Below are positions 1-4,248 of a stretch of 40,933 nucleotides of DNA, one piece after another (the first letter of the stretch is position 1; the number at the start of each line of letters is the position of its first letter). Origin of the DNA: Candidatus Poribacteria bacterium (lineage in GTDB: Bacteria; Poribacteria; WGA-4E; WGA-3G). The notes under the pieces were generated by a model, which searched no databases, was not told the DNA's origin, and saw only the letters and a program-made list of their open reading frames with translations. The position numbers and the translations under genes are program-made. The stretch lies in contig RKRR01000066.1 of NCBI GenBank assembly GCA_007571305.1, positions 1-40,933 of the forward strand, written 5' to 3'.

Positions 1-71
1 CTTCTATTATTTATCAAACTCACGTTATACTTCACTATAAATGATCCCAACAACAGGAAAAAAATAAGATA

Positions 72-1760
72 ATGATGGACTTTAGCAATACGCTTAGCGG
101 TACAGCAAGTGTGCAAGTGGAAGCACATTGGGATCCAATCGAAAGTACATCCAATAATTTGCATCGAACAACAGAAGAGAAGTTTAATAGAGCCAAGGCA
201 CAGTGGCGAGAGCCGTTAGATGTGACGTGGGAGCAGTGGTTGAAGGTGTTCAATCCCGGACCTGCACATCCGCTGAAGCACTACAGTACGCCAGATTTCC
301 AAATTTTTCTCCCCTCATTAACCGTCAACGTCGGGGATATCTGGGATCTGGATCCTGAGCGGATGCTCCGGTTTCTTCGACAGTTCCACCCCAGTGCAAC
401 AATAAAATTCCCACGTTATGGTGCCCTTCCAGCGGATCAGACAGAGGCAAAGGCGTGTTTACGGGCACTTTCATCTGAATATGCTGACATCTTTTTTCGA
501 ATTCATGTCCGCTTCATGTTGGATGCATCCATTGATGCTTACTTGATGCCAGCACAATTTGCTGGGCATTTGGTAATCAATCACGATAGCGGAACAATTT
601 GTCAATGGACGTTATCGCTTCCCAATCTCAATAGTAATGTAGGTATCGGGGCTTTTGGCACTCACGATATAGCATTCATTCCTCGCATGGAGCTCTGTAG
701 TTTATCGGAGACGCGCCCAGAATCGATTGCTTGGGAGGCTGCTATCACTGAGGAGGAGGCGAATAAAATTTTTCAGAGAGCGTTCTATAAGTTTGCTGAA
801 ATTGAGTGGACTCCGATTGAAAATGCGGTTAAACTCTCGAAAGCAACGAATCGCCCGATCCATGCGGTGCTTTTATTCGGTGTACTTGACGATGAATCGT
901 GCTGAGGAACGGGCAAAAGTTTGAGAGCGGGTCCGCTCTCCTCACAGAAAATTATTAATTTGCTCAACACGCACTTTGTGAACGTCTGGGTTCTATTGAG
1001 AGAGTTGCCTGAACTACAGACAGGTGCAAAAGGGGCAGCAGCCGGTGCTTTGGCGACAAAACTCCGACTGCATTATTCCGATTCTGTGGACATCCTGACC
1101 CTTACCCCCGAATTGGAAGTAATTGAACATTTGCCCAGTAAGAATTTATTTCATCCGGATTATGGTCTACCTCGCCGCGAGCGGATACCTCGATATTTGA
1201 AATTGCTAACGTCATCTGTGGGTATGGAAGTTAGGGCACAAAAGCCAGGTGCACTTGGAAAACGCGGTCTATCCCGGAGACTTGCTGAAGCATATGAAGA
1301 ATTTGGAAAACCGGCACCTGATTTTTCTACAATAGATTTTGATGGTAACCCGATTTCGCTCCAGCAGTACCGCGGAAAAGTCGTCTTACTCGACTTTTGG
1401 GCGGTCTGGAATGGCTTTTGCATCGGAGAAATGCTGAGGGTCAAAAAGATTTACGATACCTATAAGAATCAGGGATTTGACATCATCGGGGTCAGCCTCG
1501 ACACCAATGAAACGAAGTTACGAAATTACCTTGAAAAAAATAACATCCCGTGGCGGCAGATTTACAGTGGGCGAGAACGGCAGTGTCCGCTTGCACAGGC
1601 GTATGACGTTCGCTCTATTCCAACACGGTGGCTTATTGGTTGGGATGGCAAACTAATCGCCCATGAAGCTAGACACAAATTGATCTCTTCCAAAGGTAGG
1701 GAGGCAGACTTAGAACAGTTAGTGGCAGGAGCAGTGGCCGATAAACCTAAGAATCGGTAA
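72..1760 (+). CDS. Selenoprotein N-like protein fused to a TlpA/AhpC-type redoxin domain (in-frame UGA read as Sec)
   Basis: This is probably one 562-residue protein read through a TGA at 903-905 (codon 278), although it appears as two same-frame ORFs (72-905 and 921-1760). Residues 1-277 hold segments recalled from animal SELENON: MPAQFAG (159-165), FIPRMEL (202-208) and the run-up IHAVLLFGVLDDESC. After the TGA comes GTGKSLRAGPL and then a helix and VNVWVLLRELPEL, again SELENON-like; the human motif from memory is WGALDDQSCUG. Residues about 413-555 are a TlpA/AhpC-like redoxin domain whose CxxC is WNGFC (Asn447, Cys450), so the first Cys is missing. A bSECIS-like hairpin follows the TGA. 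Start: tandem ATGs at 72/75 behind AGGAAA. The family is a thiol oxidoreductase; the bacterial substrate is unknown. No signal peptide is evident. The alternative, a nonsense-disrupted gene, is unlikely because both halves are intact and in frame and the stop falls exactly at the Sec site. Confidence 0.88.
903..905 (+). other. In-frame TGA, predicted selenocysteine codon (Sec278)
   Basis: The TGA lies between the codons for DDESC and GTGK in one continuous frame. It gives the motif S-C-U-G, the redox motif of selenoprotein N. No other stop interrupts the frame from 72 to 1757. Confidence 0.87.
923..940 (+). promoter_or_regulatory. Candidate bacterial SECIS hairpin (SelN-like gene)
   Basis: GAGAGCG (923-929), loop GGTC (930-933), CGCTCTC (934-940): a perfect 7-bp stem. 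The loop begins 24 nt after the TGA and has G at its first two positions. This fits the usual bacterial SECIS rule (apical loop about 16-37 nt downstream of UGA, G near the loop start, element inside the coding region). SelB would bind here. Confidence 0.8.
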
Positions 1761-1827
1761 CCGTGCTCTACCAAAAAAGGGTCGATACACGAAGTTGCTC
1801 AATATTCCAAAGAAAGGAGCACCTCAA

Positions 1828-3078
1828 GTGAAAGTAATTTCGATCTTAGAAACCGTATTGAACTCACTGTTCAGTATCGCTAATGCGGGAGCGGCAGAAC
1901 AAGACGAGGAAAACATCGAAACCTGTACCCAAAACTTGACGGCTATCGGCAAAGCGGTTCAAGCTTATCATCATGAACACGATGGTTTTCCAGAGTGGCT
2001 CTCGGAACTTTACCCGAAATACTTGTCGGATGCCAAACTTTTGTTGTGTCCAGTAGATGAAAAAGGCGGAAAATCAGCTTATCCTATCAATGAAGACCCG
2101 AAAATGCCCGTGAGTTACGACTACCAGTTTCACTCGAAGTATCGAGAAGAGAAAACCGAGGAACGACTCATATATGGAGATGTTATACCGCTCGCTCGTT
2201 GCCGACATCATGAGAGTCAGCCGTTTGAGTGCCTAAACTTAAGTTTCTCCTTTAAGATATATCCCTCAACTGGTATATACACGCCCGAAGAAATGTATGG
2301 GTCTCCCGAAAAAGCCGTTACTGCTTTGGAAGCGGGACTTCAGCGACTGCCGGACTATGCACATTCCTTCTTCTCTGAACGGGCTTCTGAGCTCTATCTT
2401 TCGCTTGTCCGTTGCTACAACGAAGTCGAACAGAAAAAAGATGCTGCGGCTCTCGTCAACCGTTTCAAATCAATCATAAAACCTGATGACCTTAAGGCAC
2501 AATTTGTTCTCGGTGAGATGTTTGAATTAATGAAGCGGTACGAAGAAGCACTTGCAGTTTTTGAGAAACTTGAGAAGCAGGATTTAGATAATTACCGTGT
2601 TCTCAACAAACTCGCTGAGATTCATTGGAGACTCGGTAATTCTAAACTGGCAGAGGAGTATCATAACAAAGCGTATCCCAGCAAGTTAGAATTAATTGGA
2701 AGGCCTGTTCCCAATTTTTCCGCAACCGACCTTGCCGGTAATCCGATTTCGCTGGAACAATATCGTGGGAAAGTCGTCTTACTCGACTTTTGGGCGGTTT
2801 GGTGTGGTTTCTGTGTTTTGGAAATGCCCAACCTTAAAAAGGTCTATAACACCTATAAGGACCACGGGTTTGATGTTATTGGAGTTAGTCTTGACGTTGA
2901 TGAAGCGGAATTACGGGACTACCTGAAGAGAAATGGCATCCCATGGCGGCAAATTTACAGTGGTGAAGGTTGGGATGATCCAATCGTACAGCAGTATAAG
3001 ATTAGGGTGTTCCAGAGCCATGGCTCATCGCCAAAGACGGCACACTCATCTCGCCTGATGCCAGAGGAGCAGCGTTAG
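1828..3078 (+). CDS. Pilin-like (DUF1559-type) + TPR + TlpA/AhpC redoxin protein, C-terminus frameshifted
   Basis: GTG 1828 is chosen because AAAGGAG sits just upstream (an upstream in-frame TTG exists at 1795). From this start the N-terminal third has the CxxNLxxIGxAxxxYxxxxxGFPxxLxxLYPKYLSD...LLCP pattern found in the globular part of DUF1559/pseudopilin-like proteins, here without an obvious pilin signal. A TPR-like helical region follows. The last part is a TlpA/AhpC-like redoxin with an intact WCGFC (Cys326, Cys329), closely related to the C-terminal domain of the preceding selenoprotein. The reading frame breaks at about 3004-3009, so the final strand and helix are replaced by an unrelated 26-residue tail. 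It lies 67 bp behind the selenoprotein gene, suggesting co-transcription and a shared thiol-redox role. The redoxin fold is certain; the N-terminal assignment is tentative. Confidence 0.8.
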   Translation: MKVISILETVLNSLFSIANAGAAEQDEENIETCTQNLTAIGKAVQAYHHEHDGFPEWLSELYPKYLSDAKLLLCPVDEKGGKSAYPINEDPKMPVSYDYQFHSKYREEKTEERLIYGDVIPLARCRHHESQPFECLNLSFSFKIYPSTGIYTPEEMYGSPEKAVTALEAGLQRLPDYAHSFFSERASELYLSLVRCYNEVEQKKDAAALVNRFKSIIKPDDLKAQFVLGEMFELMKRYEEALAVFEKLEKQDLDNYRVLNKLAEIHWRLGNSKLAEEYHNKAYPSKLELIGRPVPNFSATDLAGNPISLEQYRGKVVLLDFWAVWCGFCVLEMPNLKKVYNTYKDHGFDVIGVSLDVDEAELRDYLKRNGIPWRQIYSGEGWDDPIVQQYKIRVFQSHGSSPKTAHSSRLMPEEQR

Positions 3079-3125
3079 AGCGTTTGGTATCGGAAGCACT
3101 CAAGGACACACCTACGAACCAATAG
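3009..3125 (+). pseudogene. Out-of-frame C-terminal end of the redoxin domain (1-bp frameshift)
   Basis: Reading from 3009 in the shifted frame gives VPEPWLIAKDGTLISPDARG and continues to a TAG at 3123-3125. This is the expected redoxin end (compare SIPTRWLIGWDGKLIAHEAR in the upstream paralogue). One G missing from the GGG run at 3005-3007 would restore IRGVPEPWLI. Either a recent mutation or a homopolymer sequencing error explains it. Confidence 0.85.
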
Positions 3126-3382
3126 TCATTATTTACCGAAACGGTGAGGCACCCTAACCTTGCGAACTATAATGTGCAATGTGCGCGGTAATTATGGGAT
3201 TTACTATAAAGGGTTGACTTTATCGAGTATGTGTAATGCTATTTTAGAGTGTTCACGGAACCCAACTGTATCAAGGGCACAGATCCCGTCAAATGAAAGT
3301 AATGTGGAGTAGATTCTGAGTTCATCAAAATACCTTTGTAACCGACAATCAATCAAAAAAGCGGGTATTGCATGCTGAGTTA

Positions 3383-3391
3383 TGCTATCAT
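3383..3391 (+). promoter_or_regulatory. Possible extended -10 promoter
   Basis: TGCTATCAT is an extended -10 (TGnTATCAT) 33 nt before the ATG at 3424. No good -35 is seen. The same TGCTATCAT occurs in a well-formed promoter at 27702-27730. The rest of the 3126-3423 gap holds nothing else recognisable. Confidence 0.35.
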
Positions 3392-3423
3392 AAAGAGCAC
3401 AAAAACTCTGACTGAGGTGATAA

Positions 3424-4248
3424 ATGAAACTTGGCGTATCCACCTATTCTTATTGGCATTTCAAACCTGACCGGGTACCAATTGAGCACGTTATTGAGGA
3501 AGCCGCACGGCTAGAACTTGATGGTATTGAAATTTTACATCAACAGATGGCATCCGAAGCCAACCCGTATCTTCAGAAACTGAAACGACTCGCGTTTGTA
3601 CATGGGCTTGATCTGTACGCGCTCTCCATCCATCAAGGCTTCGTTTCGCCAGACGAAGCAACACGACAAAAAAATATCAATCACACCATCCACTGCATCC
3701 GGTTGTCACACGAGCTCGGTATCCCGTCAATTCGCCTCAACTCAGGGCGGTGGGGGACTGTTCCCTCTTTCGATGAATTAATGAAAACCGAGGGTCAAGA
3801 ACCAGCACTCCCCGGACACACAAAAGACGAAGCGTTTGAATGGGTGATCGCCGCCATAGAAAAGTGTCTTCCAGATGCTGAAAAGTACGGTGTCGTTCTT
3901 GGACTCGAAAACCATTGGGGGCTAACTTGCACACCTGAAGGTGTCAATCGTATTGTCTCTGCGATCAATTCAGACTGGCTGAAGGTGACAATGGATTGCG
4001 GGAATTTCCTTTCAGATCCCTATGAAAAACTGGAACAGATTGCAAATGACGCAGTGCTTGTCCATGCAAAGACCTATTATGGTGGTGGTGAATGGTATAC
4101 GTTAGATTTGGATTATGCTAAAATCGGTAATATTCTAAAAGATGCCGGATTTCAGGGATACATATCTATTGAATTTGAAGGGAGGGCGGATGCGCATATC
4201 GGTGTCCCCCAAAGTGTAGCAATGCTTCGCGATGCCATATCTCAATAG
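3424..4248 (+). CDS. Sugar phosphate isomerase/epimerase (xylose isomerase-like TIM barrel)
   Basis: A 274-residue protein of the AP_endonuc_2 / xylose isomerase-like TIM-barrel family. The start MKLGVSTYSYW and segments DGIEILHQQM, LGLENHWGLT, TMDCGNFLSD, VHAKTYY and GYISIEFEGR are the usual strand ends that supply metal-binding Glu, Asp and His residues. The ATG is preceded by a good GAGGTGATAA ribosome-binding site. Family members isomerise or epimerise sugars, inositols or related polyols; the substrate cannot be told from sequence. It stands alone, with no direct operon partner; the next gene is 159 bp on and has its own leader. Confidence 0.85.
   Translation: MKLGVSTYSYWHFKPDRVPIEHVIEEAARLELDGIEILHQQMASEANPYLQKLKRLAFVHGLDLYALSIHQGFVSPDEATRQKNINHTIHCIRLSHELGIPSIRLNSGRWGTVPSFDELMKTEGQEPALPGHTKDEAFEWVIAAIEKCLPDAEKYGVVLGLENHWGLTCTPEGVNRIVSAINSDWLKVTMDCGNFLSDPYEKLEQIANDAVLVHAKTYYGGGEWYTLDLDYAKIGNILKDAGFQGYISIEFEGRADAHIGVPQSVAMLRDAISQ

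Follow-up and report, generated by a model that had tools for sequence, protein, structure and literature searches.

The animal selenoprotein SELENON (SelN, SEPN1) is characterized by an SCUG redox motif together with an EF-hand (PMC8584023), and its selenocysteine (Sec), at position 428 in the human protein (PMC7474598), lies within a thioredoxin-like domain (PMC7474598, PMC8148124). A 2007 survey described SelN as apparently animal-specific (PMC2375036), and sponges are among the animals that possess it. The few selenoprotein families that a 2012 comparison names, in its available portion, as shared between prokaryotes and eukaryotes do not include SelN (PMC3473315). SELENON is likewise not named in the accessible portion of a 2026 review of prokaryotic selenoproteins, where the near-matches are selenonucleoside, selenoneine, and "selenoprotein neighborhoods" and no word starts with CUG or SCU (PMC13188914); nor does "SelN" occur in the available text of the 2025 deep-Sep paper. 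Our searches of openly accessible literature found no report of a bacterial SelN. An earlier mention is possible, since SEPN1 papers of the Marino 2015 group reportedly mention a poribacterial SEPN1-like fusion.

Prokaryotic selenoprotein families listed in the accessible part of the 2026 review resemble the gene described here in having UGA-encoded Sec in thioredoxin-fold redox proteins and an in-frame SECIS element, and its UGC-containing TlpA/redoxin-family selenoproteins are similar in being selenoproteins with a TlpA-like or redoxin domain (PMC13188914). As we read the review's table, however, the UGC or UxxC of those proteins is the domain's own active site (PMC13188914), whereas the protein described here carries its predicted Sec in a distinct SelN-like domain, and its TlpA-like motif is missing the first Cys. 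The thiol-disulfide reductases ResA, TlpA, and DsbE share the TlpA-type thioredoxin fold (Pfam and predicted model) but differ in carrying CxxC, where our protein has Asn447, no hydrophobic N-terminus, and a position behind a selenodomain.

The DNA analyzed here, hereafter the window, is the 40,933-nt contig RKRR01000066.1 (C161) of Candidatus Poribacteria assembly GCA_007571305.1, which comprises 4.82 Mb in 200 contigs and is 94.4% complete. We consider it highly probable that positions 72–1760 form one frame in which the TGA very likely encodes Sec, and whose product is a likely homologue of the redox part of SELENON fused to a predicted ResA/TlpA-fold domain without the first Cys of its CxxC motif. 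The features of the reading frame are as follows.

72–1760, + strand: single read-through gene for a SelN-like selenodomain and a degenerate TlpA/ResA-type redoxin (562 residues; TAA stop at 1758–1760)
897–908, + strand: redox motif S276-C277-U278-G279
903–905, + strand: in-frame TGA, predicted selenocysteine codon U278

The original prediction had joined two same-frame ORFs through one TGA at SCUG, and its coordinates and motif proved exact: the upstream ORF (72–905, 277 aa) ends in ...DDESC before the TGA, and the ORF at 921–1760 continues in the same frame. The 562-codon frame begins 71 bases into the window, is interrupted solely by the TGA at 903–905, and stays open for 284 codons past it, compared with 2–70 codons past the six other window genes that end in TGA. 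Relative to the nearest homologue, locus L063, differences at codon positions 1/2/3 number 44/25/85 across 276 codons before the TGA, 16/10/32 across 128 codons past it, and 16/13/51 across the 152 codons of the redoxin part, a third-position excess that holds on both sides of the TGA. Full-length relatives of the 562-residue protein are 70–80% identical to it. These observations bear on the alternative that the TGA is a true stop and that the locus represents a pair of proteins, a gene in decay, or a sequencing error. TGA does serve as an ordinary stop in six of the 28 listed window genes, and gene callers do deliver two pieces, but a third-position bias that continues past the TGA argues against termination. 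Public protein sets hold the family in the same divided state: all 112 pieces P0132–P0243 terminate at ...ESC, and of the 243 proteins listed, 99 start near ...AGPLS. The expectation that gene callers would report two pieces is supported; a few of the pieces are named "TlpA family" or "redoxin."

Named genome contigs were scanned for related loci, and the best 80 of 149 candidates were kept, giving 77 loci, all in Poribacteria records; relatives from other phyla may lie among the remaining candidates. A motif pattern that would equally accept Cys, Ser, Gly, Ala, or Thr at the Sec codon matched 147 times; one match (L106 at 1027) was dropped because it is not SelN, and one of the 77 loci (L113) had no match. 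TGA occupies the Sec codon in all 146 SelN motif places scored (76 loci from other Poribacteria), which come from about 40 differently named assemblies and in which the motif is mostly S/A-C-U-G/A; owing to overlap between loci a few genes enter the count twice, and 148 of 151 sequences are distinct. A sense codon at 903–905 in other assemblies, named in advance as evidence against Sec, therefore occurs in none of the scored near relatives. The window genome itself contains five further SelN-like places, four of which have one TGA each at A/S-C-U-G/A within the matched stretch, while the fifth (C132) is damaged upstream with SCUG kept. In a search of the phylum, all but five of the SelN matches listed had exactly one TGA.

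Cys stands at the Sec position in eight proteins (P0122, P0123, and P0125–P0130). Over 689 residues, P0122 shares 85% identity with the TGA-bearing L159. The remaining seven are metagenomic SCCG homologues of 351–435 residues with hydrophobic N-termini, and those included in a 43-row tree group together as a single clade, adjacent to one of the two large Sec clades of Poribacteria. Residue 278 is thus conserved as Cys or Sec, as the original prediction required of its homologues, with two exceptions: L179 (genome G060), in which a Gly codon (GGA) replaces that for Sec while a SECIS-like hairpin is retained, and L167, whose frame is broken at the motif. Genome G060 also holds another SelN copy in pieces, and selA and tRNA-Sec were not found in that assembly. 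Broken copies such as C132 and L167 are a further point in favor of a true stop, against which stand the TGA shared by all 146 scored places across these roughly 40 assemblies and the existence of Cys homologues as single proteins.

Bacterial selenoproteins carry a SECIS stem-loop just 3' of the UGA, and the window gene is alike in having such an element in frame:

923–940, + strand: bacterial SECIS-type hairpin with a 7-bp stem (923–929/934–940) and the apical loop GGTC (930–933)

The hairpin starts 20 bases after the T of the TGA. A corresponding hairpin was found in 150 of 151 genes, compared with 0–4 of 150–151 at ten shifted positions; C133, a paralogue in the window genome, lacks a good one. 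The commonest loops are AGGU, GGUC, and AGUU, and the loop of E. coli fdhF is presumably of a similar GGUC type. Against synonymous shuffles (n = 90), mean stability z was −2.59 at +18 to +41 and between −0.32 and +0.36 at seven control offsets. Wobble sites in this region are fixed, with Leu at +18 encoded only by TTG or CTG and Arg at +21 only by AGG or AGA (58 of 58 non-redundant genes), and Leu at +33 by CTC in 56 of the 58, while wobble positions ahead of the TGA or farther downstream are mostly more variable; the hairpin is the likely cause of this unusual fixation within about 40 bases past the TGA. Across the 58 genes 94.3% of cells are paired, in a structure derived from the same sequences. 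Neither the 8 double-change cells nor the covariation score was matched in any of 500 shuffles, mostly owing to one pair (columns 24/33, GC to AU in 7 sequences); two further measures, the pairs changed on both sides and the additional pair types, were matched by 39 of 500 shuffles. A catalogued Rfam element was dropped as a candidate, since a search of window positions 1–3500 gave no match up to E 1. A hairpin under selection adds to the evidence against a true stop, which we now consider very improbable; that the TGA at 903–905 encodes selenocysteine is, judged from the sequence comparisons, very likely.

Of the four Sec genes, selA, selB, and selD score above their cut-offs in the window genome, while no tRNA-Sec (selC) scored above cut-off in its assembly, and the 8 of 14 weak matches that were fetched are all other tRNAs. 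In relatives, tRNA-Sec is above cut-off in 74 of 84 Poribacteria genomes, and ARAGORN assigned the anticodon TCA at four loci. One of these, L152, has its tRNA-Sec at 1501–1594, and its positions 1–1034 match one end of contig C78 of the window genome (4–1037), which carries selB. Because the L152 tRNA-Sec sits 467 bases beyond the stretch that matches the C78 end, selC of the window genome most likely lies just past that end, beside selB. Complete absence of selA, selB, selC, and selD, which had been named as counter-evidence, is therefore not what the genome presents, and the contig end most likely accounts for the one gene not recovered. The missing tRNA-Sec is also what favors the alternative that UGA is read here as another amino acid through near-cognate Trp insertion, a suppressor tRNA, or a code change. 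Set against this are the use of TGA to terminate other genes in the window, the presence of selA, selB, and selD, the tRNA-Sec of relatives with anticodon TCA, the exchange of the residue with Cys, and the SECIS-type hairpin 3' of the UGA, and we rate this alternative as even more improbable than a true stop.

Among the 64 SelN-bearing genomes, selA was found in 56, tRNA-Sec in 57, and at least one of the two in 60. Both were missing in four (G059, G060, G029, and G032); selB is over cut-off in G060, present only as sub-cut-off matches in G029 and G032, and not found in G059, and completeness is below 85% for G059, G029, and G032 and 96% for G060. A strict link between SelN and the Sec machinery is unsupported, given that 15 of the 20 genomes with no SelN match carry selA as well. 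The selD gene of the window genome (L030; G000, C31 3605–4528) has one in-frame TGA and for that reason probably encodes a selenoprotein itself. A sponge metagenome study reported SelA and SelB from most symbiont bins (PMC5649159).

The protein divides into four parts:

72–779, + strand: N-terminal part of the SelN-like domain, predominantly beta-strand (residues 1–236), with MPAQF and IPRMEL (predicted structure; conserved alignment columns)
780–1220, + strand: thioredoxin-fold part of the SelN-like domain (residues 237–383), holding the Cys-Sec pair (predicted model)
1227–1286, + strand: low-confidence linker (residues 386–405; pLDDT <50 in the full model)
1287–1757, + strand: ResA/TlpA-fold redoxin domain (residues 406–561), with N447-G-F-C450 replacing CxxC (Pfam; predicted model)

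With the whole model as query, matches to the redoxin domain took up the fold search, so the SelN-like part was modeled alone (residues 1–383; mean pLDDT 88.8). It is predicted to begin with a beta-rich domain and to continue into a thioredoxin-fold domain with the active site Cys277-Sec278. The beta-rich part (1–236) is barely covered by the fold matches listed, which does not amount to a demonstration of a new fold. The SelN-like part had no match in NCBIfam 20.0, and a solved structure found by sequence was dropped as a candidate after a search of solved structures returned nothing below E 0.1. No hydrophobic segment occurs in the protein, whose 17-residue mean peaks at 1.26 overall and at 0.14 near the N-terminus, and it is probably cytoplasmic.

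Pfam assigns the C-terminal domain to AhpC-TSA/Redoxin, and the fold ranking places the thiol-disulfide reductases ResA, TlpA, and DsbE at the top, with peroxiredoxins and GPX-like chains lower. The predicted fusion of a SelN-like domain to a redoxin-type domain is supported. The motif of the window domain is W-N447-G-F-C450. A redoxin motif was found in 15 of the 146 places, with the first Cys replaced by Asn or His in 14 and CGFC in one (L074), and all 99 of the listed public post-UGA fragments lack the first Cys (NSFC 43, NGFC 34, HSFC 20, SGFC 2). In the absence of this Cys the window protein is not a normal TlpA reductase, and with only Cys450 of the motif kept, the domain would be unable to run a CxxC cycle alone. 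The notion of a redox partner carried in cis is correspondingly weakened: the two domains are indeed joined, but the partner lacks its first Cys in 14 of 15 loci and 99 of 99 fragments. A peroxide-reducing enzyme in one chain, in which the SelN centre acts as reductant of an AhpC/TSA-like domain or replaces its peroxidatic residue, would fit the Pfam assignment and the joining of both domains in 15 scored loci, yet it sits poorly with the ResA/TlpA/DsbE folds at the top of the ranking and with the consistent absence of the first active-site Cys, and we regard it as unlikely. A selenol-based thiol-disulfide reductase is, from the sequence features, the most likely function.

A second redoxin gene follows directly:

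1795–3078, + strand: TPR and redoxin neighbor with W-C-G-F-C, its frame broken near 3010; a possible partner in trans

Its C-terminal part goes on in another frame after about 3010. In L063, an intact gene for a protein with an M56 peptidase, TPRs, and a WCGFC redoxin lies directly upstream of the SelN-redoxin gene; positions 955–3674 of that locus hold a BlaI-type repressor and then the M56 (BlaR1-type) protein with TPRs and redoxin domain.

The original prediction had taken bacterial SelN-like sequences to be rare, an expectation that the phylum overturns: matches at E ≤ 1e-5 occur in 64 of 84 Poribacteria genomes, with up to 17 in a genome and 439 in total, and tandem copies reach five genes within 9 kb (L118, L133). 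Some members consist of SelN alone and others, including the window genome's own paralogues L004, L005, L006, and L009, carry an unassigned C-terminal extension of about 150 residues; two of these four paralogues stand in tandem on contig C166. In a further form, an ECF sigma factor, a membrane segment, and SelN are joined in one protein with one TGA and a full-length match. It occurs in at least four of the 84 genomes, and because at most 13 candidates were scored per genome, further fusions of this kind may have been missed. These fusions have TGA in L158, L159 (with Pfam sigma-70 regions 2 and 4), L161, and L162, and Cys in P0122, and their composition suggests a redox-controlled membrane sigma factor. 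The ECF sigma and membrane-segment N-terminus was also seen in many genomes in TGA-free frames of other lengths (G076, G066, G064, G077, and others), where different C-terminal parts probably follow it. Given hydrophobic N-termini in 19 of the 146 places, taking the first ATG as start, part of the family is probably exported. Two scans found no relatives in viral contigs, and a viral origin was dropped from consideration.

The sigma factor fusions, in at least four of 84 genomes, speak for a redox sensor or signaling module rather than a bulk reductase, as does the place of the L063 gene, which comes after those for a BlaI-type repressor and for an M56 (BlaR1-type) protein with TPRs and a WCGFC redoxin. 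The window protein, however, has neither a hydrophobic segment nor a Pfam match to a DNA-binding domain, and many copies are without such a fusion, which makes a sensory role improbable here, to about the same degree as the peroxide-reducing enzyme.

For the selenol-based reductase, the hairpin at 923–940 would be bound by SelB carrying Sec-tRNASec, and Sec would be inserted at the UGA at 903–905. A disulfide or sulfenic acid of the substrate would then come under attack by the Sec278 selenol. Resolution by Cys277 would pass through a selenenylsulfide, to be reduced in turn by an external thiol system. The redoxin domain may dock the substrate, or Cys450 may give one resolving thiol to the Cys-Sec centre, and the WCGFC redoxin of the neighboring gene may be the reductant.

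Relatedness to animal SELENON was scored against an approximate human sequence, not a database entry, in which Sec falls at 423. The bacterial HMM gave this sequence 211 bits, compared with 2.9 for the best of 500 shuffles, and blastp of P0001 against the same approximate sequence gave 30% identity over 352 columns (E 7e-41, in a 501-sequence set). The relationship is likely and a strong lead, though a lead and not a test, since the human sequence is approximate. Both proteins have SCUG, with TGA as the predicted Sec codon in the window gene, and, by prediction for the window protein, a thioredoxin-like domain around it. Unlike SELENON, a type II ER membrane protein with an EF-hand, the window protein is bacterial and lacks a membrane anchor, and a Pfam scan (E up to 1) found no EF-hand in it; its family also differs in the in-frame bacterial SECIS, the C-terminal redoxin fusion, and the many copies per genome. 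Because the score depends on the approximate human sequence, and with EF-hand and ER anchor absent, we file the protein as SelN-like and not as SELENON. No eukaryotic names were seen among the best 120 of 548 proteins matched in a protein search. In the 43-row tree the row for this approximate human sequence sits at the midpoint on a long branch (1.9), and the tree is therefore silent on the direction of any transfer.

If SelN is a bacterial selenol module, it has expanded greatly in Poribacteria, which are sponge symbionts, as tandems and as fusions to degenerate redoxins and redox-switched ECF sigma factors. We tentatively suggest, as a scenario that is rather less likely than not, that this is so and that the single animal SELENON derives from a symbiont gene, or was exchanged with one, in early sponge-like animals, with the calcium-sensing EF-hand a later animal addition. 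Loss of SELENON causes human muscle disease, and a bacterial SelN-like family would open the origin of this disease gene to testing. Such a family would also allow the SCUG centre to be tested without calcium control and may yield soluble proteins for structure, which SEPN1 lacked in 2020 (PMC7474598). With it come hundreds of likely selenoprotein genes, each split in two in public protein sets, and a redoxin whose first active-site Cys is consistently missing beside a Cys-Sec centre.
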